Positions 9,323-50,738 of a stretch of 64,000 nt of DNA are shown piece after piece; position 1 is the stretch's first letter, and each line of letters begins with the position of its first letter. Made by a program: the position numbers and the translations under genes. Origin of the DNA: Sphingomonadales bacterium (lineage in GTDB: Bacteria > Pseudomonadota > Alphaproteobacteria > Sphingomonadales > Govanellaceae); NCBI GenBank assembly GCA_019455285.1, contig JACFMS010000011.1, positions 1 to 64,000 on the forward strand, given 5' to 3'. The notes beneath the pieces are model-generated. The model did no database searches. It saw only the letters and a list, made by a program, of their open reading frames with translations, and had not been told where the DNA came from.

Positions 9323-9323
9323 G

Positions 9324-13316: not shown

Positions 13317-13362
13317 GGATGGTCGGCCCCCCCAGGTGATGATCGAAGTGATGATGCGGAAT

Positions 13363-17040: not shown

Positions 17041-17056
17041 GGAACGGGGCTTTCTG

Positions 17057-20393: not shown

Positions 20394-20686
20394 GGGAGAA
20401 TTCCGTTTGCAATGGCTGAAAACGGATCCAAAGAAGGCCGGTTTTGTGAAGAAATCAAGGACAAGGCAAGAACGTGGAACAGCCTGCCGGAGAGGCCCGG
20501 CGCACGCCAAAGCAGACCGTCCGTTCAGGTCATGGGCCGTCGATCCCGGCCGTGGATAAACTTTTTTTGCAGGAGAGCCAACGCTGCGTTCGGACGGTGA
20601 GGATAATCGAAGAAAAACGGATATCGCCGGTTTGGAGAAGGCCTCAAACTCCGCGACTCCGACCGGCTGCACCCGGTCCGGTGCAC

Positions 20687-28193: not shown

Positions 28194-28465
28194 GAACGGT
28201 GTCCATTGCGCCGGGAATGTGTGGGCTACGACTGACAACGCTTGCAGAAGGGTTGGCACCATAGCTTGTGGCGGATCTCTGCGGTGCAAGGCTACATGCG
28301 TGGCGCCATGCCGCTTCCGGATGGTGCCAGCCCAATCCCGCGGCAGCCCTTGACCAGCGGCAGCGATGGCGCCAGCCTATTTATCTTGCGCTCACTAAAC
28401 CCGCATCTCTTGTCAAGCCAAGACATTCATTTACGCGCACTTCCTTTCCTCTCGTGGTTGGTCGT

Positions 28466-28948
28466 TCACAACACTGACGGTCCATGCACTACGCCAAAGA
28501 CCTTCAGCGTACCCCGAATGGCGTTCTCTATGTCGATAAATTTGCGTTTCAACAGCCGCCGATTGGAGAGCAATACGCGAAGACGGTGGCTTTCATTACT
28601 CTTGACATGAACGCGGCGAAACCAACCAGTTCGCATCATTTGTGCGAGCCCTTGTGCGTCATTGCGGTCGGTCTTGTTGCGCATGGCACTCAGCGCGCTG
28701 GCCATATGCCTTGCTTCCACGATAATTACCGGAAAGCCCTGTTTTATCAGCTCGTTGCTGAGCCAGGGAGATAAAGAACTTGCCTCGAAGCCAACTCGCT
28801 TTAACTGGTTTTTGAGCGATTGTAGAACCTGTACGATAGGTTCCGGCTCAGTCGGAACACGCGTCTCTTTCAACCTGTTGCCGTCGGCGTCTACGACGCA
28901 AATATGCGTCTCTTCCAGTGAAATATCCAATCCAGCAAATACGATCAT
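28466..28948 (-). pseudogene. Truncated IS110-family transposase
   Basis: The frame from MIVFAGLDISLEETHICVVD gives 160 residues of the N-terminal DEDD RuvC-like domain (acidic residues in GLDIS and TDRNDAQGLAQMM). Full IS110 transposases have about 340-400 residues; here the C-terminal serine-bearing domain is missing and the frame stops after KVFGVVHGPSVL. The element interrupts the traF-relaxase operon. The 119 bases between its ATG and the traF stop could be the remaining non-coding end, where IS110 elements encode a bridge RNA. Confidence 0.85.
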
Positions 28949-29067
28949 GTCAGTCTCCAATACGATGATGAATAGGAAGCATTCATAGTATGCCCCCTGC
29001 GTCCTCTGTTGGCAGCGGGCGGGTTTACGACAACACTCCTTCACTGTCAGTCCATCCCTCTCTCCGC
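28949..29067 (-). ncRNA. Possible remnant of the IS110 non-coding end / bridge RNA region
   Basis: IS110 elements carry a structured bridge RNA upstream of the transposase start. This 119-base stretch occupies that place and holds no gene. I did not find clear paired loops by eye, and with the transposase truncated the RNA would be non-functional in cis. Listed as a possibility only. Confidence 0.25.
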
Positions 29068-29643
29068 TCACTCAAAAAGTCCCTTCGTTGACGGTCCAAT
29101 TGACTCTTCAAAAACCAGAAACGGCGTCGCTTTGCCCACAATATCTGCGTGCCTGACAGGCCCGAAATACCGGCTGTCAAAGGACATCTCGACATGGGGA
29201 AGGAGTAGAAAATATTCACCTTCTGCCATCCGTCGGCACGCCTTCCATTGAGGCATCCCGCGGCCCTTGGAATCGGCCTTGGGAACATGTGTTGGCACAT
29301 TTCTATTGATGTAAAGCCATCCGCCTTCATGGCAAATCCAGTCACCTGGACCGGCGGCAACGGGCTTGATCGGTGGGACGCCCTCCGGCAGATACCCACG
29401 CTCTTTGGCCAATGCCTGAATATGCTTTGGAAGCCGTGCCACGACTAGGTCACCAATGGAAATGCTCTGTACGTTACGGACCCGGTAGAACCCCTTCGGA
29501 ATGCTCGGGCTGGCATTATAGACCAGCAACAGGGGAAACTTCTGAAAGAGCGGGATGCCGGCCAGCAGGCAACCAAGGGCTACAATCAGGCCCCAGGCAA
29601 GCCGCTTCAATCCAAATCGAGAAGTATTCCTTGCCGTTGCCAT
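29068..29643 (-). CDS. traF: Conjugal transfer signal peptidase TraF (S26 family)
   Basis: A 191-residue membrane peptidase. One N-terminal transmembrane helix (about 15-32) precedes the catalytic serine motif YNASPSIPKGFYR and the catalytic-lysine region PPIKPVAAGPGDWIC; the S26 C-terminal motif SFDSRYFGPV is present. TraF peptidases mature the TrbC pilin. The final EESIGPSTKGLFE is longer than usual and abuts the IS110 remnant, so the true C-terminus may have been replaced. The start overlaps the DUF2840 gene by 37 bases. Confidence 0.9.
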   Translation of the reverse strand: MATARNTSRFGLKRLAWGLIVALGCLLAGIPLFQKFPLLLVYNASPSIPKGFYRVRNVQSISIGDLVVARLPKHIQALAKERGYLPEGVPPIKPVAAGPGDWICHEGGWLYINRNVPTHVPKADSKGRGMPQWKACRRMAEGEYFLLLPHVEMSFDSRYFGPVRHADIVGKATPFLVFEESIGPSTKGLFE

Positions 29644-30080
29644 CGTTCATGCTCCTCCAGGCTATAGGGACGCACCAGCAACCCGACGAAAAGCCGGTTC
29701 TGGACATAGCGGTAATAGCGGATGGGAACGCTCGCCGGATCGATCCCCAAGACCTCAATCCGGCTGATGGCATCGAGCGCCTTCCTGACCCGACCTACGC
29801 CGCTCAGATCGAGGAGAATCTCAGCGCCGGGAACAACACCGGGCACCACATAGAGGGGGCGGCTTCCATCTCCGGTTTTGAGGATCAGAAACCGCCAGCT
29901 TTGCGTACCATAGTTATTACCTTCCCAGCACACATAACCGAAGATTTGTCCTGGCCGGAAGAAGGCAAATGCGTGGCGCCTGTCCACCCAGATCTGCTTC
30001 ATCGGTGCGCCGAACCGCAGCCAATGATTGATCTCGTCGGCAAAATAACAGAGTGCCACGCGCGTCAGGAGATCCGGCAT
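29607..30080 (-). CDS. DUF2840 family protein
   Basis: A 157-residue protein of the DUF2840 family, always found just upstream of traF in this ICE type. Recognisable parts are NHWLRFGAP, FRPGQIFGYVCWEGNNYGTQSWR, PGAEILLDLSGVGRVRKALDAI and RYVQNRLFVG. No membrane segment or catalytic motif is evident. Probably transcribed with the upstream DNA-binding gene, which ends 10 bases earlier. Function unknown. Confidence 0.85.
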   Translation of the reverse strand: MPDLLTRVALCYFADEINHWLRFGAPMKQIWVDRRHAFAFFRPGQIFGYVCWEGNNYGTQSWRFLILKTGDGSRPLYVVPGVVPGAEILLDLSGVGRVRKALDAISRIEVLGIDPASVPIRYYRYVQNRLFVGLLVRPYSLEEHERWQRQGILLDLD

Positions 30081-30422: not shown

Positions 30423-31211
30423 TCAGCAGAAGTTTCTGCCATTAGTAGTATATCGTTCTGCATCAACGCGATCGCGGGGAGGGCGTAGAAAATCGAGATA
30501 ACCGCCATTCATGCGTAGAACGGCCCGCTTGATGATCTTGCGCAGCCGATCCTTCATATGCTGCCGGGGGTCACTCCATTCCGTTGCTACGATATCCGGA
30601 GAATATATAGATTCAGCGATCTCGCGAAGGGATTTTCCGGCCAGATAGCCATCCAGAGTTATGAGTTGAAGCTGACGATTCCGGATAGCAATAGTGGGCT
30701 TCTGAGCAACCGACTGAGAACAACCAGACCGCCTTTTATCGACTGCGGCAATGAAACTACGGATCGTTTCCACATGAGTCTGGAAAGTGCCGAACCATGG
30801 CAGATGGAACAATAAAACATTTCCCTTCATGTACGACTTTGTGTTCAGAAGGATAATCTGGAAATGCCCTTCCACAGTCTTGAAAAGATGATGTAACCGG
30901 TTGTTTCTGTCCGAGTACACAGAAAGCTCGAAGGTATTTTCGTCGGGGGCAACACTATAGATGGGATCAACAGATCGAGGCTCGGCCGAAGAGGCCAAAA
31001 GAATCGATGAACAGGCCCGTTCAGACCAGAAAACGTCAGCCTTTGGCGCTGGAATATCTGGGTCTTCAAATCTTAACAGACCCCAGTTGTGAGGGTGTGT
31101 CTTGCTACAAGAAGCACTTAAATAACAATAAGCATGTTCATGATAAAGTGGATTGCGGCGCAAGAATTCCCATGCAAAGTGGCGATTGTTGTGCAGATTA
31201 ACGTCTGCCAT
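30423..31211 (-). CDS. DUF6499-DUF2285 transcriptional activator, FseA-like
   Basis: A 262-residue protein. The N-terminus (NRHFAWEFLRRNPLYHEHAYCY) is the DUF6499-type regulator domain and the C-terminal 90 residues form DUF2285 (LQLITLDGYLAGKSLREIAESIY, SDPRQHMKDRLRKIIKRAVLRMNGGYLDFL). In the Mesorhizobium model this protein, FseA, is made by ribosomal frameshifting from two frames; here it is one continuous frame. It would activate the neighbouring RdfS-like gene 96 bases downstream and be blocked by the QseM-like protein. It lies 47 bases after the cargo operon. Confidence 0.82.
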   Translation of the reverse strand: MADVNLHNNRHFAWEFLRRNPLYHEHAYCYLSASCSKTHPHNWGLLRFEDPDIPAPKADVFWSERACSSILLASSAEPRSVDPIYSVAPDENTFELSVYSDRNNRLHHLFKTVEGHFQIILLNTKSYMKGNVLLFHLPWFGTFQTHVETIRSFIAAVDKRRSGCSQSVAQKPTIAIRNRQLQLITLDGYLAGKSLREIAESIYSPDIVATEWSDPRQHMKDRLRKIIKRAVLRMNGGYLDFLRPPRDRVDAERYTTNGRNFC

Positions 31212-31258: not shown

Positions 31259-33244
31259 TCAGCCGTCAGACGATAAGTCAATACCGAGTTTTCGAGTAAG
31301 AAACGACATCCATTCCGCCGCTCTTTCCGGTGGAGCGGCAGCCGCCTCGATATGGCCGAAACCCTCCCAGACCCTAAAAAATACCTCAGCTGGGCCGCCT
31401 GCATCTTTCATCCGTGCCGCAAGTTTGCGCGCATGCCACGCAGGACTCATGTCATCGCTGCTGCCTGCTATCGTCAACAGTGCGGGATAGGCAGTCCCGC
31501 TCTTTATTGCATAATAGGGAGAAGTGGCTTTCAGGTGATCGTGCATGGATGAATCGCATGGATCGCCCCATTCACCAAACAGCCAGCGCACGGATATGGG
31601 ATCACGCCCATAGTGCAAAAGATCAGAGAACGGTATATGCGCCACAACGGCCTTGAATAGCTCCGGCCTGCGGATTGCCGCCGCGGCAACCAACAGCCCC
31701 CCATTGCTTACACCGAAAATTCCAAGCTTGTCTTGTGTCGTTATTTTGGACTGGATCAAGAATTGTGCTGCGGAACAAAAGTCATCGTAGGATATCGTCT
31801 TGTTTTTACCTGAACCACCGCGGTGCCAAGCTTCGCCAAGCTCTCCACCGCCGCGTATGGTGGCCCATGCCAACACACCACCTGCCTTTATAAAAGGAAT
31901 GAAATTTGGCATATACATCGGCAGATCGGCAATGCCCAAGCCGCCATACGCCGTCAGGATCGTGGGATTTTCTACGGATGTCTCAAGGTCACGACGATGC
32001 GTAATCTGGATCGGAATTTTTGTGCCGTCTGCAGCCGTCACAAAAACCCTGCGGGTTACAAATTCATTCTCGATAGCCAGAGGCGGCTCAATCTGGGTAA
32101 GAATATCTGCTTTGACATCGTAGCTGTACAGCGCGGGTGAGGAGACATGTGTCTGATGGGTAAAGACAACATGATCTGCTGAAAAAGCGGCAACATCGCT
32201 GCCGGCCACTCGCGCCGGACCGATGATCCCTACCGCTCCCGGTCCAGGCGAGGGAAGGGCGGTTTGTTCCCTGCCGTCGAGCCCCAGAATACGCATATTC
32301 ATACAGGCGTCACCCAGTTCCGATAACAGAAGTTGGTCTCCCGCTCTGGAGATCGACCACATGACATGCTCGCCTTCCGGCATCAGCTCAACCCACTGCT
32401 CGCGGTCCTCGGGGCCGTCGAGCGGGATCGCGACCAAACGTCCCCGGGACGCGCCTTCCGTCGTGACGGCAATATAATGGTTCCCGTTGAATACACCCCG
32501 GCACCGGCCCGCAAACGTCCTGAAAAAGGACCGCCACCGGCCGGACGCTTCATTCTTGATCCACAAGGGATACGGCCCTGATGCGGTCCGTGTGAGAACC
32601 AACGTGTATTTGCCGTCGGAAGATGTCTGAGGCTCCACATCAAGAGCCTCCAGTACAACAGGTTCTTCCATCGCCTGTGGGTTGCCAAGGTCGAGACATA
32701 CCAGCCGCCGCTTGCCCCAGCGTTTCCCGGCGTCCTCCCCGACAATACAGTAAAGTCCGCTTTCGTCAGCCTTCCAGGCAATAAGCGACGGACCGAGCGG
32801 ACCAGCATGAAGCGCCAGACGATCATTTGTAATGCTGCCGCGGGCCACATCCACGATCCGCAAAACTGTGGCACCGGACGGCTTGGGCGCTACAACCAGC
32901 GCCACAAACCTGCCTTGAGGCGATGGCAGCATCTGAAGAATCACAGCGCCTTCGGATGTATTCGCCGCTTCGCATAAAATGGCGCCGGTATCGTCCGGTG
33001 CATGGCCGGTCGCCACGGCCATGCCGCGCGGACCGATGACGAGCCGGAACCAAAGGCCCCCGGCATGGACAGGCGCCGCCTTGAAACCTACAGCCGCTTC
33101 TTTCAGCGCCGCGCAAGCCGCCAGATAAGCCGGATGCGCCAGAAGATCAGCACCAGCTCTCTCATTTTCTGCCACCTGCCAGGCCAAGCTCTCCGGCCCA
33201 TCATCCTCCAGCCACATGAACGGATCAGTCATCGCGTCAGTCAT
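31259..33244 (-). CDS. Prolyl oligopeptidase family serine hydrolase (S9)
   Basis: A 661-residue S9A-type enzyme: N-terminal beta-propeller (about 60-400) and C-terminal alpha/beta-hydrolase domain with Ser in GVSNGGLL, Asp in GSSDDMSP and His in GFGHIEA. YGGLGIADLPMY and IRGGGELGEAWHRGG are family landmarks. No signal peptide, so probably cytoplasmic. The propeller limits access to small peptides or peptide-like compounds. Start MTDAMTDPFMWLEDD overlaps the MFS stop by four bases. It is the last gene of a five-gene operon; in this setting a peptide or amide bond in the cargo's substrate is the inferred target. Confidence 0.88.
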   Translation of the reverse strand: MTDAMTDPFMWLEDDGPESLAWQVAENERAGADLLAHPAYLAACAALKEAAVGFKAAPVHAGGLWFRLVIGPRGMAVATGHAPDDTGAILCEAANTSEGAVILQMLPSPQGRFVALVVAPKPSGATVLRIVDVARGSITNDRLALHAGPLGPSLIAWKADESGLYCIVGEDAGKRWGKRRLVCLDLGNPQAMEEPVVLEALDVEPQTSSDGKYTLVLTRTASGPYPLWIKNEASGRWRSFFRTFAGRCRGVFNGNHYIAVTTEGASRGRLVAIPLDGPEDREQWVELMPEGEHVMWSISRAGDQLLLSELGDACMNMRILGLDGREQTALPSPGPGAVGIIGPARVAGSDVAAFSADHVVFTHQTHVSSPALYSYDVKADILTQIEPPLAIENEFVTRRVFVTAADGTKIPIQITHRRDLETSVENPTILTAYGGLGIADLPMYMPNFIPFIKAGGVLAWATIRGGGELGEAWHRGGSGKNKTISYDDFCSAAQFLIQSKITTQDKLGIFGVSNGGLLVAAAAIRRPELFKAVVAHIPFSDLLHYGRDPISVRWLFGEWGDPCDSSMHDHLKATSPYYAIKSGTAYPALLTIAGSSDDMSPAWHARKLAARMKDAGGPAEVFFRVWEGFGHIEAAAAPPERAAEWMSFLTRKLGIDLSSDG

Positions 33245-34503
33245 CCGTGCGTGCCCTCTGTCGCGGCGTTCAGGGTCATGTCGTTCCGCCGCTTGCCTGT
33301 GGCCAGAATGCAGAGCGCCCCTATGGGAAAGGCCCCAATTCCAACCCAAAAGGCGAGCATATAGCTGCCCGTGACATCATAGATGCCAGCGAAAATTAAG
33401 CCACCGGCCGCAAGCGAGAGAGCGGTCACCAGCATGATCACGCCAATGATGGCGCCGAACATTGTCATGCCGAAATAGCGGGGTACGAAATAGGCGATAA
33501 AATCAATTTCCGCTCCCTGCGCGAAACCGAACAGCATGACGGAAATGGCGACAATGATAAAATGCGGCTCAGGGGCCATCATGGCGAATAGGCCCGCAAT
33601 GGGCATCAGCAGGCAGGCAGCCGCCACGCCAGGTGCCCACAAGCGATCAAGCAGGAACCCGGCGCCAATCCTCCCGACAGCAATGGAGATGGCGAAGACC
33701 GAACCCAGCAATGCGGCAATTTTTGGATCGACTCCGCGATCACCAAGAATGGGCAGAAGCTGGCTTAGAATGCCACCCACCGGAATATTGGCGAATATCA
33801 TGGCTGCCAGCAGCAGCCAAAAGCGTTCGTCCCGGACCACTTTGGCCCAGCTTATCACCGCGACAGGGCTTATGGGTAGGGGATGCTGCTTGTGCGTCGG
33901 GTGCAAGGCTGTCTCACTCGGCTGATCCCGCATGAAGCAGCCGACAACAGGAAGACCGATGAAGAGAGATATGGCGGCAAGGGTCAGATAACCCGCCTGC
34001 CAGCCATAGTTGGCAATCATATACTGCAAAAGTGGGAAGCAAAGGGCGGCCGTTACCGAAACACCGCTCAGCGTCAGACCAATCGCCGTGCCGCGCGCCT
34101 TGTCAAACCATAGGCCGATGGGGCGGGTAAAAATCATTGGGGTGGTCGCCACACCAATAACAGCCAGCAGCGTACCCAGAATGTAAAGCTGGATCAGTTG
34201 TCCATTCAGCGTCGTCATGCTGGCATAGGCAATGCTCAGAAACAGCATGCCTGCTGCCGCAACCCGCCGCGCACCGATGCGGTCGATCAGCAGACCCATA
34301 AGTGGCATTATGAATGACGATACAATCGCAAACATGGCGAGCGCCGCTATCTCGGCGCGGCTCCAACCAAAAGCTTGTTCCAACGGCTGGATAAAAAGGC
34401 CTGAGGTAAGCGTATAGAGTCCCACCCCGGTCCCCATTCCCGTTGCGGCGGCGGCAACGATACCCCAGCCCCGTTTCCATTCATCGCGTGCGGAAAGGAT
34501 CAT
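33241..34503 (-). CDS. MFS transporter (monocarboxylate-porter-like)
   Basis: A 420-residue carrier with 12 predicted membrane helices and the inter-helix 2-3 motif GLLIDRIGARRV. The first helix region GMGTGVGLYTLTSGLFIQPLEQAFGWSR is typical of the OxlT/monocarboxylate subgroup of MFS. It lies between the SDR and S9 hydrolase genes with four-base overlaps on both sides. Likely inner-membrane uptake of the compound, or of acid products released from it, after passage through the TonB receptors. Substrate unknown. Confidence 0.88.
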   Translation of the reverse strand: MILSARDEWKRGWGIVAAAATGMGTGVGLYTLTSGLFIQPLEQAFGWSRAEIAALAMFAIVSSFIMPLMGLLIDRIGARRVAAAGMLFLSIAYASMTTLNGQLIQLYILGTLLAVIGVATTPMIFTRPIGLWFDKARGTAIGLTLSGVSVTAALCFPLLQYMIANYGWQAGYLTLAAISLFIGLPVVGCFMRDQPSETALHPTHKQHPLPISPVAVISWAKVVRDERFWLLLAAMIFANIPVGGILSQLLPILGDRGVDPKIAALLGSVFAISIAVGRIGAGFLLDRLWAPGVAAACLLMPIAGLFAMMAPEPHFIIVAISVMLFGFAQGAEIDFIAYFVPRYFGMTMFGAIIGVIMLVTALSLAAGGLIFAGIYDVTGSYMLAFWVGIGAFPIGALCILATGKRRNDMTLNAATEGTHG

Positions 34504-38535: not shown

Positions 38536-39156
38536 ATGACCACTCAGAGTGTCGAAGCATTCAACCGCGACCGCCAGTTCGAAGCCAAGCGCAAGGCGGT
38601 AATTGTCGCAGCTGCACGCGCTTTTCATGAATTTGGTTATGTGGAAACGACGCTCGACGAGGTGGCCCGCCGCTTGGGTGTGACAAAAAAGACGCTTTAT
38701 TATTACATTAAAAGCAAGAACGAAATCCTGCTTGAGCTGTTTCACCTTTGGCTGGACACGCAGGAAGCATCCGTCGTTCATGCCGAACAACTTAAGGGTT
38801 CTGCGCTCGAAAAGATCGCTGCTTATACGCATCATTATATTCAGAGTGTGCTTCAACTGTCAGCTCCCATCGACAGGGTTGCCAACGAACTAACTGGGCT
38901 TTCGGAAAAAGACCGGAAAATAATCAACAAGCGGCGTAGTTCCAATGACAACCGTTTACGTAAGATATTGCAGGACGGTATTGCGGAAGGATCGGTCGCT
39001 GCGGACCTGAATGTAAAGATCACTCACTATACTCTGCATGGGGCAATCGACTGGTTCTTCAAATATTACAAGGCGAATGGAGAATTGACGGCTGAACAGG
39101 TCGTGGACGAGATCCTCCGCACCCTGTTCAATGGCATGAAGCCACGCATTGGGTAA
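38536..39156 (+). CDS. TetR-family regulator of the cargo island
   Basis: A 206-residue TetR regulator. The DNA-binding part reads KRKAVIVAAARAFHEFGYVETTLDEVARRLGVTKKTLYYYIKSKNEIL (residues about 15-62 overall, HTH at VARRLGVTKKTLYYY), followed by a helical ligand-binding domain. FadR/PaaR-type TetR proteins respond to acyl-CoA and control beta-oxidation genes; the neighbouring genes suggest a similar inducer here. It is the only regulator in the cargo, and its probable operator is repeated at all three cargo promoters. Confidence 0.9.
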   Translation: MTTQSVEAFNRDRQFEAKRKAVIVAAARAFHEFGYVETTLDEVARRLGVTKKTLYYYIKSKNEILLELFHLWLDTQEASVVHAEQLKGSALEKIAAYTHHYIQSVLQLSAPIDRVANELTGLSEKDRKIINKRRSSNDNRLRKILQDGIAEGSVAADLNVKITHYTLHGAIDWFFKYYKANGELTAEQVVDEILRTLFNGMKPRIG

Positions 39157-39247: not shown

Positions 39248-40075
39248 CTATGAAAATCGTGCCGGCCTATCCTTTGAATCAACAGTGCAAAGAAATTCAT
39301 CGATGATCCGGTGGAACCGTTCCGGGTCGTCGACATTGGCGCAATGCCCGCCGGTCTTGAACGGCATCACTTGTGCATTGGGAAGACCGGAAAGTGTCTT
39401 CAGTGTCGATTTTAGAGTGCGGTTTATAGCACTATCATCCTCACATTGCAGCAGTAGGATCGGACCTGAAAATTGTTCGGCAACCGCCCGATAGTCGAAC
39501 CGGCAGATGTTTGGGCTGACCAGTTTCGAGACTCTTCTATCCATTTTTTCGAAGGTGCGGGTCAGGACCTCCCGGCCGTGCGGTGTTTTCGAGGTCTGCT
39601 CAGCCGCCCAGCGTGCCAGTTTCCTGCCAAGGAAGAAATAAATGATGTCCCGGATGACCAGAAGAAACCTGGGGACCTTTAACTGATATGTCGTGCCGAA
39701 GGTCATAAGAGAACGGACGAGGCCGGGTCTAAGAGTCATCAGCTCGAGCGCGATGTTCCCGCCCAGCGAATTGCCGACGACATCAATCTTATCGATCTTA
39801 AGGTGGTCTAGAAGATACGCCAGATCGCCAGCAAATTTGGCACAGGTGAAATCCTCGATTTTCGGGTCCGGCGGAAAGCCGGTGTCGCCATGTCCGCGCA
39901 TATCCGGCTGGATCACGCGGCGGCTTTGCGAGAAATGTGCGACATCCTGTTCGAACTGGACATGGTTTGCCCCCAGGCCGTGAAGCAGGAGAAGCGGCAC
40001 ATCCGTTTCTGGTCCTGCAATACGGTAGATCATCCTGAACCCGTCAGGCAGGTCAATGGAGGGGGTTTCAACCAT
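39248..40075 (-). CDS. Alpha/beta hydrolase (first of three)
   Basis: A 275-residue hydrolase: oxyanion region LLLHGLGANHVQFEQD, DMRGHGDTG, nucleophile elbow GNSLGGN (Ser), and a C-terminal GGHCANVDDP with the catalytic His. No signal peptide. It is the last gene of the second minus-strand operon, 19 bases after the acyl-CoA ligase. Esterase, lactonase or thioesterase activity all fit; the substrate cannot be read out. Confidence 0.86.
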   Translation of the reverse strand: MVETPSIDLPDGFRMIYRIAGPETDVPLLLLHGLGANHVQFEQDVAHFSQSRRVIQPDMRGHGDTGFPPDPKIEDFTCAKFAGDLAYLLDHLKIDKIDVVGNSLGGNIALELMTLRPGLVRSLMTFGTTYQLKVPRFLLVIRDIIYFFLGRKLARWAAEQTSKTPHGREVLTRTFEKMDRRVSKLVSPNICRFDYRAVAEQFSGPILLLQCEDDSAINRTLKSTLKTLSGLPNAQVMPFKTGGHCANVDDPERFHRIIDEFLCTVDSKDRPARFS

Positions 40076-40094
40076 GTTTCGTTCGCTTTTTATC

Positions 40095-41651
40095 TCAGTC
40101 CCTAGGCCACAACCGGGCCTTCAATTCAGCCTTTATGACTTTTTGAAGCGTGTTCCGGGGCAGGCTGTCAATCAATGTGACAGCGTCCAGACGTTCATGA
40201 CGGTTCAGGCGTTCGTTCGCCCAGTCCCGCAGCACGGCGGCCTGGATCTTCGCTCCTTCTCTCAGTTCCACAAAGGCATGCGGGGTTTCACCCCATTTGT
40301 CATGCGGCGCCGCCACGACCGCAGCACCCAGCACATCGGGATGCTGGGCCAGAACTTCCTCCACGTCTGAGGCGTAGACATTCATGCCACCGGAGACGAT
40401 CATATCTTTCTTGCGATCCACGACATACAAAAAGCCGTCTTCGTCCAGATAACCAATGTCCCCAGTGCGGAAAAAAAGGCGCCCGCCGAGGTCATACCAA
40501 GCAAGTTCGTCATTCTGGTCTGGCCGGTTGAGATATCCGCGCGAACAGAACAGGTTGCGGCCGACGATTTCCCCCCGCGTATTGGGCGGTAACTCTCGGT
40601 CATCGGGGCCGATGATCCGGATTTCGCCGCAAGCACCGGGCGGGCCCACACTGGATAGTTTTTCAGGCAGATGGCACGGCTTGAGCAACGTGCCCGCACC
40701 TTCCGTTGTGCCGTAAATCTCGAAAAAGCCTGCGCCGGTGAAAGTGGACAGGCGGCGCTTTGTTTCATCACGCAGTTTCGATCCAGCCGAAATAACGGTC
40801 TTGAGCGTCCTGCAATCAAACCTCCCCAAGTCGGGATAATCAAGCACCGCTTCTATCTGTGTCGGGACAAGGAAACTGTGGGTGCCACCAAATGTTTCCA
40901 CAGCGGCCAGATATGATCGGGCCTCGAAACCCTGCATGAAAATCAGTGTGCCCCGCGCATAGAAGGTCGGCACCATCAACATCCAGCTTGCATTGGAGCA
41001 GGCGGGCGTGGTGAGAACCGAGACCGTTTTCTCATTCATGGCATATTCGGCGGCAAAGGCGACACCGAACAGACTGCGCCCCATATGGGAATGGAGAATG
41101 CCTTTCGGCACCCCTGTCGTACCCGAACTGTATATGATGGTGCAATCATCCTCGGGGTCTATCTGAACAGGTGGCGCAGTTTCCTGGCCTCTGTCAAGCA
41201 GCGCCGCATAGGTTCTCTTGTCGTCATCAAGCACGATCAGGCCATGGGACAGCAAGGACGGCAGGCGGGATGGCAGGTCCGTGTCCAGAAGCGGTGATCC
41301 GGCTTCAACCAGCAGCGCCTTGACTTCAGCATCACGCAAAAGACGGAAAACGGTTTCCGGCGTCAGCAGCATGGAAATGGGGGCTACGACGAAACCCGCC
41401 TTCAGAGCGCCAAAGGCGAACTCAAGATGTTCAATGCGATTGGTCGTGAAAAGGCCCACACGGTCCCCGCGTTTCAGCCCCATTGCAATCAGGACATTTC
41501 CCACCCGATTGATCGCACAATTGAGTTCGCCATAGGTGCGCCGTTCGGAACCGGCTATGACAGCCGTCTTATCTGCTGCCCAGCTTGCGTGGCTTTCGAT
41601 GAACAGTGGGACCGTAAAGATCTGTTGCGGCAACCTGGTCATGACGATCAA
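40095..41651 (-). CDS. AMP-dependent acyl-CoA synthetase/ligase
   Basis: A 518-residue ANL-superfamily enzyme: phosphate-binding loop IIYSSGTTGVPKGI, FFEIYGTTEGAG, adenylation motif FFRTGDIGYLDEDGFLYVVDRKKDMIVSGGMNVYASDVEEVL and C-terminal PRNTLQKVIKAEL with the catalytic Lys. It would activate a carboxylic acid to its CoA thioester, the entry step for the FadB-like enzyme and thiolase encoded upstream. The start overlaps the FadB-like stop by four bases. Chain-length preference is not predictable by eye. Confidence 0.9.
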   Translation of the reverse strand: MIVMTRLPQQIFTVPLFIESHASWAADKTAVIAGSERRTYGELNCAINRVGNVLIAMGLKRGDRVGLFTTNRIEHLEFAFGALKAGFVVAPISMLLTPETVFRLLRDAEVKALLVEAGSPLLDTDLPSRLPSLLSHGLIVLDDDKRTYAALLDRGQETAPPVQIDPEDDCTIIYSSGTTGVPKGILHSHMGRSLFGVAFAAEYAMNEKTVSVLTTPACSNASWMLMVPTFYARGTLIFMQGFEARSYLAAVETFGGTHSFLVPTQIEAVLDYPDLGRFDCRTLKTVISAGSKLRDETKRRLSTFTGAGFFEIYGTTEGAGTLLKPCHLPEKLSSVGPPGACGEIRIIGPDDRELPPNTRGEIVGRNLFCSRGYLNRPDQNDELAWYDLGGRLFFRTGDIGYLDEDGFLYVVDRKKDMIVSGGMNVYASDVEEVLAQHPDVLGAAVVAAPHDKWGETPHAFVELREGAKIQAAVLRDWANERLNRHERLDAVTLIDSLPRNTLQKVIKAELKARLWPRD

Positions 41652-43750
41652 ATCTCATGAAAACGTGAGTTCGATATAGCCATATCCTTCAGAACGGCGG
41701 GAGGAGAAAAGCGTGCCCCGACCCTCTCGGCAAAGACATTGCAGCATTCAACGAAGCGCCGTGCACCAATCCCATCGATATACGCCAGCGCGCCGCCGAC
41801 CGATGCAGGATAATTCCAGCCCAGGACCGAGCCCAAATCACCATCCGCCGCGGAGGCGATAACCCCTTCCTCAAGGCATCGAACAGCCTCGACGGCCTGT
41901 ATGCCCAGCAGACGGTCAATCACTGTTTCTACATCCATGTCCGGTTTCGACACTGGGAAGTGTATTGCAAGACCCGGCCATAGTCTTTTGCGCTCACCCT
42001 GTGGATAATCATAAAGGCCACGACCATATTTCTTGCCGCGCCGGTCAAGCTGGTCGACAAGCATAGCCAATACGTCGTCTCCTGGCGCGGGTTTGTAATG
42101 CTCACCCAGATCGCGCTCGTTCTGACGCTGGATCGACAGCATGGTTGCGGCGCTGACCTCATCCACGACGGTCAGAGGGCCCACAGGCATGCCGGCCAGC
42201 CTGCCTCCATGCTCGATCAGCGCAGGCGGAACCCCTTCGGTTAGAAGCGCAAGTCCTTCCCGGACATAGGTCGAGAAGACCCGGCTTGTAAAAAAGCCAC
42301 GCTCGTCCTGTACGACGATCGGCACCTTCCTGATTCGGCGTATGAAGGCCAGCGCCCGCGCCAATGTATCAGGGGATGTTTCCATGCCGGGGATCACCTC
42401 CACAAGTGGCATGCGGTCCACGGGAGAAAAGAAATGAAGCCCGATAAACCGGTCCGGCCACCGCAAAGTTTTCGCCAGTCCGGCAATGGGCAGGGTGGAG
42501 GTATTGGTTGCCAGCAGAATGTCACCCTGTGCCTCTTCCACGGCCCTGTAGATATCCGCCTTGACTTCCCGATCTTCGAACACGGCCTCTATGGCAATTT
42601 CACAGCCTCGAACCGCGCCCAGATCAGCGGTTGTCACGATGTTATCCAGCCGCTCGCGCATGCCGGATTCGGAGAGCACGCCCGCACCAACCTCCCTGCC
42701 CAGAACCTTTTCCGCATAGGCTTTGCCGCCGTCGGCCAACGTCTGATCCCGGTCCACAAGCATGACTTTATAGCCGGCATTGGCGCAGACTGTGGCAATG
42801 CCTGCCCCCATCATACCCGCCCCCAGAACGGCGACCTTTTTGCCGCTGTCGATCGACGTGGCGCGATGCCGGGCTTGCCGGGTGTGAAAAAAGGTTGTGC
42901 GGATGATGTTGCGGGTCGCCGGCGCAACCATCAGTTCCGCAAAGCGACGCTGCTCGACTTTCAATCCGGTATCTATCGTTGAAACCGCGCTTTCATAGAT
43001 ACAGGCCAGAATGGCATGCCGGGCATGATCGTTCCGCCATGTGGAGGCGCGCAGGTCGCCGCCGAGCTTCAGGAAAGAAGCAGCCCCTTCCGGTATACGG
43101 GGATCGATGCTTGCTTTGTATTCCGCCCTGTCCCAGGGTTGCACCGGCTGCGGATTCGACAATATCCATGCTTTCGCCCGATCGACCAGATCGCCCGCCG
43201 CACACAGCTCGTCAATCAGTCCTTTCTCAAGCGCGTGGGAGGGACTTAGCTGAATCCCTTTCAAAAGGAGCGGGGCTGCCTTCTCTATACCGATCAGGCG
43301 GGGCAGACGCTGTGTACCGCCGCCTCCCGGCAATAACCCCAGCGTGGCTTCAGGCAGGCCAACTCGCAAGTCCGGCAGGTCGGCGGCAATGCGATGATGG
43401 CAGGCCAACGCAAGTTCGAATCCACCCCCGAGCGCCGAACCATTCAGGGCTGCAACAACCGCCTTGCCCCCGGTTTCCATGAGGCGGTGCATATCCTGCA
43501 CGGCGGCAGAATAATCGGCGGCTTCCGCCGCGGATGCCAGGCTCCACAACTCGTCAAGATCCGCTCCCACCAGAAAGCTTTTCTTGGCGGAGGTTATCAC
43601 GATGCCAATGACCTTGGGGTCGGTGAGGGCTTTTTCGATGAAACGCCTAAGCGTGGCAGTACTGGCACGATCCAGCAAATTGTGTGAACGCGCCGGCTGG
43701 TCAAGCACCAGCGTACAAATGCCATCTTTATCTGTTGTCGCGTCGATCAT
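41648..43750 (-). CDS. FadB-like enoyl-CoA hydratase / 3-hydroxyacyl-CoA dehydrogenase fusion
   Basis: A 700-residue bifunctional beta-oxidation enzyme. The crotonase half (about 1-190) has VGADLDEL, LNGSALGGGFELALACHHRIAA and GLPEATLGLLPGGGGTQRLPRL, with the hydratase Glu in LPEATLGLLPG. The dehydrogenase half has the NAD motif AVLGAGMMGAGIA, then IEAVFEDREVK, FSPVDRMPLVEVI and GFFTSRVFSTYVREGLALL. I start at MIDATTDKDG (43750), 8 bases after the thiolase stop. Both active sites look intact, so hydration and oxidation of enoyl-CoA are expected. Confidence 0.92.
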   Translation of the reverse strand: MIDATTDKDGICTLVLDQPARSHNLLDRASTATLRRFIEKALTDPKVIGIVITSAKKSFLVGADLDELWSLASAAEAADYSAAVQDMHRLMETGGKAVVAALNGSALGGGFELALACHHRIAADLPDLRVGLPEATLGLLPGGGGTQRLPRLIGIEKAAPLLLKGIQLSPSHALEKGLIDELCAAGDLVDRAKAWILSNPQPVQPWDRAEYKASIDPRIPEGAASFLKLGGDLRASTWRNDHARHAILACIYESAVSTIDTGLKVEQRRFAELMVAPATRNIIRTTFFHTRQARHRATSIDSGKKVAVLGAGMMGAGIATVCANAGYKVMLVDRDQTLADGGKAYAEKVLGREVGAGVLSESGMRERLDNIVTTADLGAVRGCEIAIEAVFEDREVKADIYRAVEEAQGDILLATNTSTLPIAGLAKTLRWPDRFIGLHFFSPVDRMPLVEVIPGMETSPDTLARALAFIRRIRKVPIVVQDERGFFTSRVFSTYVREGLALLTEGVPPALIEHGGRLAGMPVGPLTVVDEVSAATMLSIQRQNERDLGEHYKPAPGDDVLAMLVDQLDRRGKKYGRGLYDYPQGERKRLWPGLAIHFPVSKPDMDVETVIDRLLGIQAVEAVRCLEEGVIASAADGDLGSVLGWNYPASVGGALAYIDGIGARRFVECCNVFAERVGARFSPPAVLKDMAISNSRFHEI

Positions 43751-43758
43751 GATCTCCG

Positions 43759-44979
43759 TCACACCCTTTCGATAATCGTGGCAATGCCCATGCCTGCGGC
43801 GGCGCACAGCGTACAGGCCCCGACCGACAGATCGCGCCGCTCCAACTCATCCAGAACCGTGCCAAGCAGAATGGAGCCGCTGGCTCCCAGGGGATGGCCC
43901 AAAGCGATGGCACCTCCGTTCACGTTGACGATGTCGTGCGGCACATCCAGCAGGTCCATATAGCGCAGCACGACAGAGGCGAAAGCCTCGTTCACTTCAT
44001 GAAGGTCGATATCACCAATATTCATACCAGCAATTTTGGCAGCCTTTTCGACGGATGGCGCCGGAGCTGTCAGCATGATCGTCGGTTCGGATCCCACCGT
44101 GGCAAATGAACGGATGCGGGCCCGCGGCTTTAGCCCGAGTTTCCGTACACCCTCGGCGTTGGCGATCAGAACGGCAGCCGCGCCATCAACGATGCCACTG
44201 GAATTACCCGCATGATGGTGGTGTTCGATCCGCTCGATGGCGGGATATCGTTGCAGGGCGATAGTGTCAAAACCGCTGTCGCCGAGAGCAGCAAAGGCGG
44301 GCTTGAGACGTGCCAGACCGTCAAGGCTCGTGTCCGCCCGCACATGCTCGTCGTGATCCAGTATGAGCAGCCCGGCATCGCTCACCACGGGAACGACCGA
44401 CCCTGAAAAACGGCCATCAAGCCATGCAGCAGCAGCCCGGCGATGCGACTCCACGGCAAAGGAGTCCACATCTTCCCGGCCATAACTCCAAAGCGTGCAG
44501 ATCAGGTCCGCCGCTATACCCTGCGGCGTGAAATAATTGCGATAGACCACATAGGGATCCCCGGTCATCGCACCGCCATCCGACGACATCGGCACACGGG
44601 ACATGGATTCAACACCCCCTGCGATCACTATATCGGACTGACCGGACATCACTTTGGCCGCAGCGATATTCACCGATTCAAGACCCGAGGCGCAAAAGCG
44701 ATTGACCTGCAAGCCGGTTACTCGCTGGTCATAACCGGCAGCCAACGTCGCGATACGTGCAATGTCCGACCCCTGTTCATTGACGGGAGTCACGCACCCC
44801 AGCACCACATCATCAACCAGAGATGTATCAAGATGGTTCCGGCACGCAATTGCCCTGAGCACAACCGTCGCCAACTCCAGCGGCGTCACCGAATTGAGCG
44901 CTCCACGGGCCTTACCCTCTCCTCTGGGAGTGCGCACGGCATCAATGATGAAAGCTTCGTTCACGTTTCCAAAACTCAC
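43759..44979 (-). CDS. Thiolase (acetyl-CoA acyltransferase)
   Basis: A 406-residue thiolase: acyl-binding Cys in [14 protein letters not shown] (about 91), His in [14 protein letters not shown] and the second Cys in [25 protein letters not shown] is the conserved NEAF motif. It would carry out the last step of beta-oxidation with the FadB-like product. Between the upstream hydrolase (stop directly adjacent) and the FadB-like gene, as in fad operons but in the order fadA-fadB. Confidence 0.92.
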
Positions 44980-45831
44980 TTAATGCACACCGGCGCCAGG
45001 ATTGAAAAACCGGTCAATGAGAAGTGCGTCTTCTGCCCGGTCGAGAAAGGGTGCGTGGCCCCATTCCCGATAATCAGCCACGACGAGGTCCACCCTTGCC
45101 ACGCGCATGCGTTCAACGATTTCCGGCGTGACGATTGATGACTTCCAGCCGTGAATCAGCATGATCCGTGCTGGCAGAGCCACAAACTGTTCCCAGACCT
45201 CGAAATCGCAGCGGCCATGAACAATATGGCTCTCGATCTTCGGGTCCTGATGAAGGGTGTAACCGCCATCCGGCAGACGCCGCGCGAAACAGGCGGCCTT
45301 TGCACACCAGAAGGCCGCGTCGCGTTCAGGGCCGGCAAGTTCGCCCAAGCCGGTCTTCAGATATGCGGCCACTTCACCCAGCGACAGAAAGTGAGGCTGC
45401 GACCCCATGCTTCTGCCAATCGGCTCCGCCAGTTCGTCCGGCAGGGTCGGGCCGATGTCATTCATCACGAGATGCGTAACCCGGCCCGCAAGAGGGCCGG
45501 ATGCTGCATGAATGCCAAGCACGCCCCCCATCGAGGTGCCGATCCAGCACAGCTTCTCAACCCCCAGTTCGTCGATGATCTCACGAATCAGATCGGCAAA
45601 GACGGGCAGCCGATAATCGCGTTCCGGGTTGGCAGACCAGAATGACTTCCCCCGTCCGGGCAGATCCAGCGCCAGAACACGATAGTTTTCACCGAGATGT
45701 TCTCCGATCTCGATGAAATTCTCAGCAACGCCGAAGCCGCCATGAACAGCCAACACGAAAGGCGCCCCCGGACACCCCCACGATAGCCCCCTGATTTCTC
45801 CCCTTGTTGTTTGAAATAGATGTGTTTCCAT
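44980..45831 (-). CDS. Alpha/beta hydrolase (second of three), first gene of the ligase/beta-oxidation operon
   Basis: A 283-residue hydrolase with LAVHGGFGVAENF, LALDLPGRGKS, nucleophile elbow WIGTSMGGVLG (Ser) and C-terminal YREWGHAPFLDRAED (His). No signal peptide. It heads the operon hydrolase-thiolase-FadB-ligase-hydrolase, so it probably frees the acid that is then activated and oxidised. A TetR-type operator cluster lies directly upstream. Confidence 0.86.
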   Translation of the reverse strand: METHLFQTTRGEIRGLSWGCPGAPFVLAVHGGFGVAENFIEIGEHLGENYRVLALDLPGRGKSFWSANPERDYRLPVFADLIREIIDELGVEKLCWIGTSMGGVLGIHAASGPLAGRVTHLVMNDIGPTLPDELAEPIGRSMGSQPHFLSLGEVAAYLKTGLGELAGPERDAAFWCAKAACFARRLPDGGYTLHQDPKIESHIVHGRCDFEVWEQFVALPARIMLIHGWKSSIVTPEIVERMRVARVDLVVADYREWGHAPFLDRAEDALLIDRFFNPGAGVH

Positions 45832-45841
45832 GCAGCTCTCT

Positions 45842-45893
45842 TTATTGGTGCTATTTATATACCAATTGGTGACATAATGTATTAATGGGTGAC
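45842..45893. promoter_or_regulatory. TetR-type operator cluster, ligase/beta-oxidation operon
   Basis: TATACCAATTGGTGAC (45858-45873) contains the 10-base palindrome ACCAATTGGT and the half-site GGTGAC. Further copies are ATTGGTG (45844-45850) and ATGGGTGAC (45885-45893). The three ATTGGTG-like units start at 45844, 45865 and 45885, spaced 21 and 20 bases, about two DNA turns, so bound dimers would sit on one face. Shares GGTGAC with the sites at 38288 and 46062. Confidence 0.65.
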
Positions 45894-46052
45894 GATGTCA
45901 AACACTTTCTTGCCCAGAACGCGCACCAAGCCCAAGTGAGGATTTGCCTGAAAACAACGGGAAGTTCGTCTTTTCCCAAATGAAAACAGGTGCCTGTATC
46001 GCTTCTTTCGACCTCAATAACTTTTCCTTGAAAATATCCCCTAACCAGTATA

Positions 46053-46088
46053 CCACCATATGTCACCAATAGGTGTATTAAAACACCA
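46053..46088. promoter_or_regulatory. TetR-type operator cluster, second receptor promoter
   Basis: GTCACCAATAGGTGTA (46062-46077) is an imperfect palindrome with half-sites GTCACC and GGTG. Extra CACCA units start at 46054, 46064 and 46084, spaced 10 and 20 bases. It lies about 55-90 bases before the receptor ATG. It matches the other two cargo promoter sites in half-site and 4-base centre. Confidence 0.65.
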
Positions 46089-46141
46089 TAAAGATACGTC
46101 GAAACAGAGGCTTCGTTTTCTTTCACGATGGGAGACAAAGA

Positions 46142-48318
46142 ATGTGCACCGGCTATTTTAAAGGCGCGTCGCTTACGGCGTTGATGGCGGCCATGGCGAT
46201 CCCCGCGGCAGCGCAGGATTCGGATAGCAGCCGCTTTCAGCTGGAAGAAATTCTGGTAACGGCGCAAAAGCGTGAGCAACGCCTGCGCGATGTGCCGTTG
46301 AGCATTACCGCATTCACATCGGACAGCATCCAGCGTATCGGTGCCGACAGATTCGAGGATTATTCACGCGCTGTGCCGAGCCTTGTGCCTGCTCCGGTCG
46401 GGCCAACCACACGTTTCACGCTGCGCGGGATCTCAACCTCGACGGCGGCGCTAACCACGCAGCCCACGGTCGGTATTTTTATTGATGATGTTCCCGTGAC
46501 CGACAATTACATTGCCTTCAACTCTCCGGACCTTCGCCTCTTCGATGTCGAACGGGTGGAAATCCTGCGCGGGCCGCAAGGCACATTGTTGGGCGCAAGT
46601 TCGCTGGCCGGAGCAGTGCGCATCATCACCGCCAAGCCGAATTTGAGCGAATATGAGGCCAGGGTGGAAATGACAGGCTCCACCACAGCGCATGGCAGTG
46701 AAAGCCTGGCGCTCAGCGGTATGGTCAATGTACCGGTCATTGAAGACAAATTGGCCATCCGCGCGGTTGCCTACAAGCGCCACAATGGCGGCTATATCGA
46801 CGATATCGGGCTTGATCAGAAGGACGCCAATGTCACAAAGACATATGGCGGGCGTCTCTATGTGGGCCTTCAGCCGACGGAAGACTGGAATATCATCGCA
46901 TCTGTAAGCTATCAGAACGACCTGATACGAGGCTATACCGGCACTTTTCTGAACCCGCCGGAAGGTGCGGACGAGTTGAATTGGTTCTCCTATATCCAGC
47001 CCCGAGTGCCGAGCGACCTGCTGACCATGCAGCTTCAGACCACCTATGATCTGGGTTGGGCCGATATATTCGCCAATATTTCCCATAGCAAGCAGAATGC
47101 GCTTTATGTACAGGACGCCACATTGTTTTCCGTGGTGTTTGGCGGTTTGACCATCGGCACGCCTTACTTTTTCGACAGCAACACCAGAACAACGGTTGCC
47201 GAATTTCGACTGGTCTCGAAAAACGATCGGCCCTTGCGATATGTTCTGGGCGGCTTCTACAACAAGAAAAGGCGCGATTTCACAGCCCGGATCAATCAGG
47301 AAGCCTTTGTGCCAATCTTTGGAACAGACCTGATCTATCAGTCTGACGGCCCTGAGAATCCGTCCCGTGAGCTGGCGGTCTTTGGTGATGTCACCTATGC
47401 TTTGGGTGACCTTGAAGCCACCGTTGGGTTGCGAGCGTTCAAGAACAGGTTTTCGCTCACAAGCATCACTTCCGGCCTTTCGCTGGGATTGCCCGACACA
47501 GTCCTGTCGATTACGGAAGAAAACAGGTCGTCATCCGTAACACCACGTTTCTCCCTCAAATACAATGTATCGGACACGGCAAACGTTTATGCGACGGTTG
47601 CCAAGGGATACCGCTTTGGCCTTGTGAATGCGGTCAACAATCCGCTGGCGCCCAAAACATATGACTCGGACTCGCTATGGAATTATGAAATCGGTGCGAA
47701 GGGCGTTTTCTTTGATGGCCGGGTTTCTCTCGAATCCGCGCTCTATTACATCGACTGGCGGGATTTTCAGGTCAATCTGGTGCTTCCCGAAGGTGTCGGG
47801 AATTTCACCGTGAATGGCGGCAAAGCGCGCTCCTATGGCGCGGAAATCGCCATGGCAGCCCAGATCACAGACAATCTGATCCTTGAAGTCTCGGGCAGCA
47901 CACCAACGCCAAGCTGGCTGAGGATATCCCCAATCTCGTGCAGAACTCCGGAGTCATCGGCGCCCTGAAGGGCGACCGCCTGCCCGGCGTACCAAAATAC
48001 CAGAGCTCGGCGGCAATCCAGTATAATTTTGACGGCATCGGAGGGGCTGAAAGCTCCATAAGGTTTGAACACCAATATATTGGCTCGTCTCTCACCGATT
48101 TCACACCCGCAGGGGCACTTGAAATCGGTGGGTTCAACGTCGTCAACGCCCGTACGACCATGTCGTACGAAGGTTATGATATTACCCTATTCGCAAATAA
48201 CCTGTTCGACAGTAAGGGCATTACCAACGCCATTCATGGTATGGTTCTGCCTATTACGGATGCGGCCTTTCGTATCCGCCCGAGAACGCTCGGAATAACC
48301 TTGCGCGCAGATTTCTGA
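46142..48318 (+). pseudogene. TonB-dependent receptor with a one-base frameshift
   Basis: A second receptor: weak signal sequence ending IPAAAQ, LEEILVTAQKREQRLRDVPLSITAF, plug with FTLRGISTSTAALTTQPTVGIFIDDV and VERVEILRGPQGTLLGASSLAGAVRII, then barrel. The frame runs from 46142 to a stop at 47966-47968, but after GGC AGC at 47894-47899 the sequence fits the family only if one base is added (AGC TAC ACC AAC instead of AGC ACA CCA). The other frame then continues with NLVQNSGVIGALKGDRLPGVPKYQ to a proper TLRADF end at 48318. Restored length 725 residues, normal for the family. Either a recent mutation or a sequencing indel; everything else is intact. Confidence 0.85.
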
Positions 48319-48376: not shown

Positions 48377-49204
48377 ATGCCGATATCCACTGCCAACGGA
48401 GTGCCGGTTTATTACGAAGTCCATGGCAAAGGGTTTCCCGTGCTGATGATCACTGGCATGGCAAGCGTGATGGATTGGTTCCATTACACCATTCCAGCTT
48501 TTGTCGAAGCCGGATTTCAGGTGATTGCCCAGGACCTGCGCGGCAGCAACCGGGACGGTATAACCGCACCGCTGCGGCCATATTCGACAGAAGATATGGC
48601 GCGGGATTCGATTGGAATACTCGATGATCTGGGTATTGAACGGGCCCATATTTTCGGCATGTCGATGGGGGGTATCGTTTCTCAAGTGATCGCGGTCCGG
48701 CACTCCGAACGTGTGGAGCGGCTGATTATTTCCGCCAATGGTCTGGCCCGCATGCCGGAAGACGTAAAAAAGATGGCGTTGGGGCAAGTGGACGATGGCT
48801 CGCCCATCAGTGAGATGCACAGCAGGAAGGCGAGTCGGGAAGAACAGCTTGCCTCGTCCATAAAACTGGCCTTCACGCCTGACATTGCAAGCTACCACCC
48901 CGAACGGCTGCAATTCTTCAAGGACGTCATCTTCACCAGACACGGACCATTGGACGTCACACGAAAGGCACAGGTCATCGCGGCCTGTGAACACGACTTT
49001 CTGGACGAGCTGGCCAATATAAAAGCACGAACACTTCTGATCGTTGGCGAACTGGACCATGTAAACGGAGGTCAGATCGGGGAAATGGCCAATCGCATTC
49101 CCGATAATGAATGTCGAATCCTGCCAGGCATGGCGCACGGTTTTGTACTGGAACACGCGGATGAGATCAACGAAATCACCCTTACCTTCCTTAAGAGGCC
49201 TTAA
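48377..49204 (+). CDS. Alpha/beta hydrolase (third of three)
   Basis: A 275-residue hydrolase: VYYEVHGKGFPVLMITGMAS, AQDLRGSNRDG, nucleophile elbow FGMSMGGIVSQV (Ser) and PGMAHGFVLEHADE (His). AAGGAG precedes the ATG. Cotranscribed with the frameshifted receptor, 58 bases after its end. Closest in style to 3-oxoadipate-lactonase-like hydrolases, but so are many esterases. No signal peptide. Confidence 0.86.
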   Translation: MPISTANGVPVYYEVHGKGFPVLMITGMASVMDWFHYTIPAFVEAGFQVIAQDLRGSNRDGITAPLRPYSTEDMARDSIGILDDLGIERAHIFGMSMGGIVSQVIAVRHSERVERLIISANGLARMPEDVKKMALGQVDDGSPISEMHSRKASREEQLASSIKLAFTPDIASYHPERLQFFKDVIFTRHGPLDVTRKAQVIAACEHDFLDELANIKARTLLIVGELDHVNGGQIGEMANRIPDNECRILPGMAHGFVLEHADEINEITLTFLKRP

Positions 49205-49380: not shown

Positions 49381-50561
49381 CTATGCAGAATAAGCTATTT
49401 GCGGAACGCTCTTTATAAGAGCCGCCTGTCGGGAAACACGGTCGAGAGAATAAGCTTCGCGCGTAAACTTTACATTGTTCAAGAGGCCATTGATGTATCC
49501 AGAAATAGTATCGGCCGCCATGACGAGTGCGGTGTCTATCGTGTGGATATAGCGGCTGGTCACTGTACCACGTGAATGACCAAGCAGAGCCGCAATCGTC
49601 ATTTCAGTGAAGCGGAGATCATTTGCCATGCTGGCAAAGCTGTGACGTAAAACATGCGGTGTGATATCCGCAAGGGCAGTATTTTTAAAAACATCTTTCC
49701 AGATTTTTGGAAATCCTGAAAAGACTGTTTCCTCGACAGTTCCCGGAAACACGAGCCCCTCGGGCTTTTCAGGGCGCAAACTGTCAAGAAGATCGATAAC
49801 AGCGAGGCCTACAGGTCGGACAGACGCCCCTTCCTTGCTGTCGATCAGCCGCAAACAGCTATTCTCCACGTCGACCTCGGACCAATTCAGGTTGATGATC
49901 TCACCACGTCGACAGCCCGTCAGCGCCAGAAGTCGGATCATATTTGTCGCAACCTGGAAACGCTTCACACCGGCAGCTTTCTGCAGAATAGTGCCAAGCA
50001 GGTTGTATTCCTCTTCGCTCAGCCTCCGGTCCTTCATCTTATCGGCAGCCTTGCGGACGCCGTGGACCGGGTTCTTCTCGATAATTCCATGCTCCACGGC
50101 ATAGGTAAAAATCCCACCCAGTAGGGCGCAGCAGTACCCGGCCCCCCGCGGACAATCGCTCGGCCACGTCTTTTCGTCTTGATATCCGCCTTCGTCTTCC
50201 CTGCCGTAACATTCCGAAGGAAATGGGTGACATCCGCCGACGTTATATCTTTCACGCGCCGTGTTCCAAGGAGCGGTATAATATGTCGGTGGATCCGGCT
50301 GCGATCGCTAGCCAAGGTTGAGTCCCTCATGGACCGCCGGCCTTTACCAAGGATCAGGCCCTTGTCTGCCTCCTCAAGATATCGGGTGCACAGCTCTTTC
50401 ACGGTTATTGCCTTGGCGTCGAGTTGGCGCACCTCCGCCGGGTTTTCTCCCTGGACTATCCGTCCGAGAAGGACACGTCCCTCCCGGCGGGCGGCTTCCG
50501 TTGCCCATACCCCATGTAGGCCGAAACCCGGCCGTTCGTCGTCCCGACCAAGCCCGATCAA
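49381..50561 (-). pseudogene. Tyrosine integrase of the ICE, truncated and frameshifted
   Basis: Two overlapping frames make one integrase. Frame one (50561 to about 50120) gives HGVWATEAARREGRVLLG and the core-binding domain ITVKELCTRYLEEADKG; frame two (about 50120-49381) gives GGIFTYAVEHGIIEKNPVHGVRK and the catalytic domain with Arg in LTGCRRGEI, HVLRHSF, LLGHS and YIH (Tyr). The break is near 50115-50130, where the family has a few residues more than either frame provides. The N-terminal arm-binding part (about 90 residues) is also missing: a stop lies directly before 50561 and only 100 bases remain to the tRNA. The catalytic residues are all present, but the protein as read cannot be made. 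Confidence 0.85.
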
Positions 50562-50661
50562 TCAGGAAAAAAGATCACGGAATACGAAAAAATTCTGTAG
50601 CCCGGTTGTAGCCTAGGCCAAAACGACGGAATAGTGATTATATTTAAGTCTTTGATTTAAT

Positions 50662-50738
50662 TGGCGCACCCGACACGACTCGAACGTGTGACCTCTGCCT
50701 TCGGAGGGCAGCGCTCTATCCAACTGAGCTACGGGTGC
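50662..50738 (-). tRNA. tRNA-Arg (CCG), ICE attachment site
   Basis: Read on the minus strand the gene begins GCACCCGTAGCTCAGTTGG, has an anticodon arm CTGCC-CTCCGAA-GGCAG giving anticodon CCG (Arg, codon CGG), a T arm with TTCGAGT and an acceptor GGGTGC-G plus encoded CCA. All stems pair. The integrase relic lies on its 3' side, the usual place for an ICE that inserts into the tRNA 3' end and rebuilds it. The matching att repeat would be at the far left end, outside the window. Confidence 0.96.

Follow-up and report, generated by a model that had tools for sequence, protein, structure and literature searches.

The island that ends at the tRNA-Arg(CCG) gene of the stretch analysed here (the window, which is bases 1-64000 of contig C16 in a draft genome of 3.30 Mb and 57 contigs) is very likely a 53.8-kb attL-attR element whose working module is IntB, an integrase encoded on another contig, C50. 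In the same reading, the integrase beside the tRNA, IntA, is the dead former integrase of the conjugation backbone, left there by nesting or recombination. The element is probably not trapped in the chromosome because a complete IntB is present at the far end and its probable binding sites occur at both ends. A sequence-only reading of the window had taken the island, if the decay was real, to be trapped unless another integrase acted in trans or a functional one lay at its other end. A complete 489-aa integrase frame was found there, on the contig that joins C16, and, as judged from this reading frame, the claim of trapping appears not to hold.

The decayed integrase beside the tRNA gene

The tRNA-Arg(CCG) gene, which is the integration target, was found to be intact (50662-50738, minus strand; detected by ARAGORN and by Rfam with 67.8 bits). 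IntA lies on the same strand and adjoins the 3′ end of the tRNA. Its C-terminal piece matched PF00589 (E 1e-18) and its N-terminal piece matched PF14659. The frame break was located at 50125/50126, where 2 nt separate the GTAA and LLGG codons compared to 12 nt in relatives, so that 10 nt are missing relative to the intact genes. A loss of this length is unlike a read error of one base. Homology to the intact relative L053 begins near residue 23, leaving approximately 22 N-terminal residues missing, and a further 27 residues (approximately 31-57 of L053) are gone in frame, for a total N-side loss of approximately 49 residues. The lesions of IntA were observed directly. The catalytic R, K, HxxR, H and Y motifs, which we take to be the motif set of tyrosine integrases, are all retained. 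There is no single open frame, and so little of the arm-binding domain is left that even with the frame restored the protein would scarcely be functional. A search of the genome, in which PF00589 gives seven places, turned up no intact gene of the IntA type. The sequence-only reading was therefore correct on the decay of this integrase, on a frame break near 50120, on the retained catalytic residues and on the intact tRNA, but its estimate that the first 90 or so residues were absent was too high.

Limits of the element and the second integrase

The 24-nt 3′ end of the tRNA occurs in two places in the genome at up to three mismatches, both of them exact. The second copy, on C50, begins at 194320 inside the 50-bp identical stretch that repeats the 3′ half of tRNA-Arg(CCG) (Table 1), and no tRNA was detected at this core copy. 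C50 terminates 3.1 kb past the attL repeat, and its overlap with the start of C16 is on the same strand and has no other place in the genome. Among 28 of the 57 contigs sampled (C11 and C21, with N-masked starts, were set aside), end overlaps of exactly 55 bp were found at three junctions, C50-C16, C16-C8 and C47-C2, and overlaps of other lengths were not found. Uniform 55-bp overlaps are the mark of k=55 assembly joins. Since the overlap is exact, unique and equal in length to those at the other joins, C50 continues into C16, although the contig break implies some ambiguity at this point. The join and the second core copy together give an element consisting of C50:194318-197434 and C16:56-50709, a total of 53,771 bp including both repeats, with direct-repeat attachment sites at both ends. 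The two ends and the adjacency of the contigs were observed directly.

Table 1. Features of the element and its surroundings (window positions unless a contig is named)
Feature	Position	Strand	Remarks
C50/C16 overlap	1-55		exact match to last 55 bases of C50
ArdC antirestriction protein	6774-7613	-	
TrbB, C, D, E, J, L, F, G, I and DUF2274	9020-18016	-	
TraG/VirD4 coupling protein	18477-20672	-	
Relaxase (DUF3363)	26454-28289	-	about full length compared to relatives
IS110-type transposase fragment	28466-29071	-	within tra region, between TraF and relaxase
TraF-type S26 peptidase	29068-29643	-	
DUF2840 protein	29607-30080	-	
HTH_17 protein, 78 aa	30090-30326	-	RdfS-like candidate excision factor; first gene of traF-relaxase operon
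RovC-type DNA-binding protein	30423-31211	-	
Cargo: S9 peptidase and MFS transporter	31259-34503	-	
Cargo: acyl-CoA ligase, FadJ-like protein, thiolase, hydrolases, TonB receptor	39248-47968		
Cargo: alpha/beta hydrolase	48377-49204	+	
IntA pseudogene	50561 to 49381	-	tyrosine integrase split over two frames
Two TGTAGCC arm-type repeats	50596-50613	+	starts 50596 and 50607, 11 bp apart
attR core	50660-50709	-	50 bp identical to C50:194318-194367 (attL core, outside the window)
IntB	C50:194524-195993		complete 489-aa frame, tyrosine integrase, 156 bp inside attL

An assembly or sequencing artefact, with a read error behind the frame break or a false join of C50 to C16, would be conceivable in a draft of 57 contigs in which both are known from the assembly alone. 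It is highly improbable, as the 10-nt loss, the 27-codon in-frame loss and the missing 5′ end are atypical of read errors, and the overlap resembles the other joins.

Homology to a sister species on the tRNA side ends exactly at window position 50661. On the other side, the match of C50 to a genome of the same genus (G001) ends 2.2 kb short of attL. G001 has one core, different DNA beside its tRNA and an IS1595-type transposase, and the other genes beside its tRNA correspond to contig C37 of the genome under study. The left flank in G003, a genome of the same family, showed no syntenic match to C50 or to G001. An empty relative would be expected to have the left side of C50 next to its tRNA. 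Left-flank synteny speaks neither for nor against the pairing of the ends, which is established by the contig overlap.

The sequence-only reading had suggested a search of the genome for the repeated tRNA 3′ end and for a second integrase, and both were found: the exact copy at C50:194320 and the complete frame of IntB. IntB carries an arm-binding (PF13356), a core-binding (PF14659) and a catalytic domain (PF00589, E 2e-19) and all catalytic motifs (R, K, HxxR, H, Y). It is 61% identical to its relative in G003 and 57% to that in Methylobacterium sp. NEAU K. The last 50 or so residues are unlike the tail of the G003 protein and run over a tRNA-like scrap; the tail of the L110 integrase also differs, indicating that tails vary, and damage to the IntB tail is possible. 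In the G003 relative the frame is broken near the N terminus (L086, approximately 16720-16785), the ATG frame ending after 20 codons. Matches to IntB on plasmids (12 of 72,556 records at E 1e-40) were all below 60% identity and were uninformative.

The scrap is a piece resembling a tRNA 3′ end from the T-arm to CCA (C50:195887-195911; L010, 11888-11912). It is unique in the genome at up to three mismatches and is perhaps the remnant of a third attachment event.

The finding of IntB bears directly on whether the element is trapped by the death of its sole cognate integrase. IntA is certainly broken and no intact gene of its type was found in the genome, but a trapped (integrase-less) ICE is one with no complete integrase in cis, and here IntB is such an enzyme, encoded at the far end of an element whose two ends both bear its arm-type repeats. 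Trapping is thus quite improbable.

Ownership of the ends and orientation of the backbone

The TGTAGCC pair lies 64 and 53 bp from the core edge, between IntA and the tRNA, and three TGTAGCC repeats lie directly ahead of the IntB start codon on C50. The repeats, like the complete IntB frame, were observed directly. The pair pattern was found once in the 64-kb window, compared to none of 100 shuffles, and twice in the C50 end. Among 138 loci it occurred in 16, all of which were own-genome copies of the two ends, G003 or L110. In G003, the IntB relative lies beside the distal core of a 12-kb island at tRNA-Arg(CCG) with four TGTAGCC repeats, and the two TGTAGCC repeats at the tRNA end of that island are 53 and 64 bp away from the core, exactly as beside the tRNA of the window. 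In Methylobacterium sp. NEAU K, an IntB-type integrase by the same tRNA-Arg core has two TGTAGCC repeats with 11-bp spacing, so that repeats at this spacing accompany IntB-type integrases in three genomes. Relatives of IntA have other 11-bp-spaced upstream repeats, mostly TGCTTACG-like; some pair was present in 12 of 13 loci, a count made without a shuffle control, and L061 was the locus with no such pair upstream of its integrase. TGCTTACG does not occur in the window; a single copy of its reverse complement is present at 36280, well away from IntA.

Because TGTAGCC repeats of the IntB type are present at both ends, the attachment sites in use look like those of IntB. Their position, and the five arm-type sites described for ICEMlSym(R7A) (PMC11963761), suggest that these repeats are binding sites of IntB. 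We propose as a rule that the arm-site word shared by the two ends of an element identifies the integrase that controls it. The IntA family does use the tRNA-Arg(CCG) core, but the view that IntA stands at its own attachment site is not supported: the tRNA-side repeats are arm-type sites of the other integrase type, and IntA and its relatives are located on opposite sides of the core.

The C-terminal piece of IntA matched at E ≤1e-30 in 22 of 296 genomes of the order, its own included. In the 13 nearest genes (L053-L064 and L085), the tRNA-Arg core precedes the frame by approximately 10-230 bp and in every case flanks the gene on the side opposite to that seen in the window; the scores were 35 to 77 of 100, L063 being the weakest. 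The scan covered 37 sequences; a motif filter left out seven of them (L065, L068, L073, L074, L076, L078 and L079), and for L052, whose gene is represented by L085, the frame obtained was wrong. The core was absent (scores ≤20 of 100) in the lower-identity L066, L067, L069-L072, L075, L077, L080, L082 and L084. A full tRNA was present in none of 34 loci. In all three stretches that include the tRNA (G057, G259 and G042), the IntA relative is at the tRNA-distal end and reads toward the tRNA. The same backbone is colinear with the IntA relative in four of five genomes (G057, G259, G265 and G286) and reversed in G268; no backbone was found in the fetched stretches of G267 and G042. IntA and the backbone in the window share the colinear order of those four, but as a unit they point away from the tRNA. 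The ICE is therefore flipped relative to the tRNA compared to the ICEs of IntA relatives, as observed directly, and it is IntB that occupies the usual place of an integrase, the tRNA-far end of the element.

Second partial copies of the tRNA-Arg(CCG) 3′ half were found on the same contig in G003, G012, G042, G051, G056, G057 and others. Across the order, tRNA-Arg(CCG) looks like an integration hot spot.

The same features could have arisen from two islands with separate histories that share the tRNA, a small IntB island and an ICE, with loss of the middle core. IntB-type islands can be small and lack a T4SS, as does the 12-kb island of G003, and the colinear partner of the backbone is IntA, as in four of the five relatives with both. 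The right end of the element, however, has repeats of the IntB type in place of the TGCTTACG-type ones seen with IntA relatives. With no more than two cores in the genome, any event driven by IntB would today take out the entire unit. This history is unlikely, and it differs from the reading of one IntB-driven element mainly in the past it supposes. A simple tandem array of two islands does not itself give an IntB-type right arm beside an inverted IntA; an inversion or an inverted nesting is needed for the observed order. A tripartite ICE, with three integrases and three att pairs, was also rejected, as one core pair surrounds one unit after the contig join.

In the reading of one IntB-driven element, the backbone probably lost its own end on nesting in, or recombining with, an IntB-type island of the same tRNA, an event that would have flipped the ICE and left the IntA fossil just inside the right arm of IntB. 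IntB would now recombine attL and attR through arm sites on both sides, perhaps helped in excision by the RdfS-like HTH_17 protein, and one excised circle would carry the ICE backbone together with the cargo. Transfer of the excised unit would then fall to the relaxase, TraG and the Trb proteins. We tentatively suggest that a small non-conjugative IntB island captured an ICE of the same tRNA, destroyed its integration end and so became conjugative, the switch flipping the ICE; the doubts about this sequence of events somewhat outweigh the case for it. If it took place, the element represents a module exchange caught half-way, with the same tRNA core and different arm-site words (TGTAGCC compared to TGCTTACG).

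Comparison with known systems and gene content

With ICEMlSym(R7A) and related trb/rdfS/traF/rlxS ICEs of alphaproteobacteria, the element shares trb conjugation genes, an integrase gene placed directly inside one of the attachment sites and a core surrounded by several arm-type sites (PMC8627217, PMC11963761). The rdfS excision factor of ICEMlSym(R7A) is the first gene of the traF and relaxase operon, as is the candidate here (PMC11963761). Unlike in those ICEs, the old integrase persists as a fossil at the opposite end, beside the new right arm, the backbone is flipped relative to the tRNA and an IS110 fragment is found in the tra region. The composite island CGI48 of Shewanella putrefaciens, with the nested GI21, is likewise a tRNA-gene island carrying another island; both of its units still excise, whereas here the integrase end of the inner element is lost, and both integrases are of types found at the same tRNA (PMC8978831). 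The 12-kb island of G003, at the same tRNA-Arg(CCG), shares the IntB-type integrase at the distal core and the TGTAGCC repeats at both ends with the same spacing, but has no matches to the conjugation proteins of the window and an integrase with a broken N-terminal frame.

Frequent switching of the integration mechanism has been inferred for Mesorhizobium ICEs from incongruent trees (PMC8627217), and IntA would be a concrete fossil of this process. Integrase switching in ICEs being already known, the surviving fossil is of modest novelty; what is unusual is the former integrase beside the new right arm, with both integrase types at the same tRNA. In a limited literature search of titles and abstract openings, no report was found of a dead integrase lying next to a replacement module. 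Because draft contigs can split an element, a trapped island should not be concluded from a decayed integrase next to a tRNA until the other end has been found.

The relaxase, the coupling protein and the trb set of the trb/rdfS/traF/relaxase class of ICEs are all present, and the HTH_17 protein heads the DUF2840-TraF-relaxase operon. This RdfS-like factor may have served IntA and not IntB. The trb set is complete, in agreement with the sequence-only reading, but the IS110-type fragment falls into the traF-relaxase region. At this position G286 carries another ORF, which from its sequence reads as a lytic transglycosylase, and the fragment may be damaging to the transfer operon.

Between TraG and the relaxase, the backbone also contains a GajA-GajB (Gabija-type) defence pair (21912-26110), which is encoded on the plus strand, opposite to theirs. 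A 2174-aa NACHT protein is encoded at 15-6539 (minus strand), its first 780 or so residues matching the Avs3a model (E 9e-202), and is adjoined on C50 by a 361-aa protein with no family match. Within the cargo, the genes at 39248-45831 (minus strand) form a catabolic cluster of the fatty-acid/CoA type (AMP ligase, FadJ-like protein, thiolase and hydrolases) with the TonB receptor adjacent, and a TetR-like ORF, read by eye, is located at 38536-39156.
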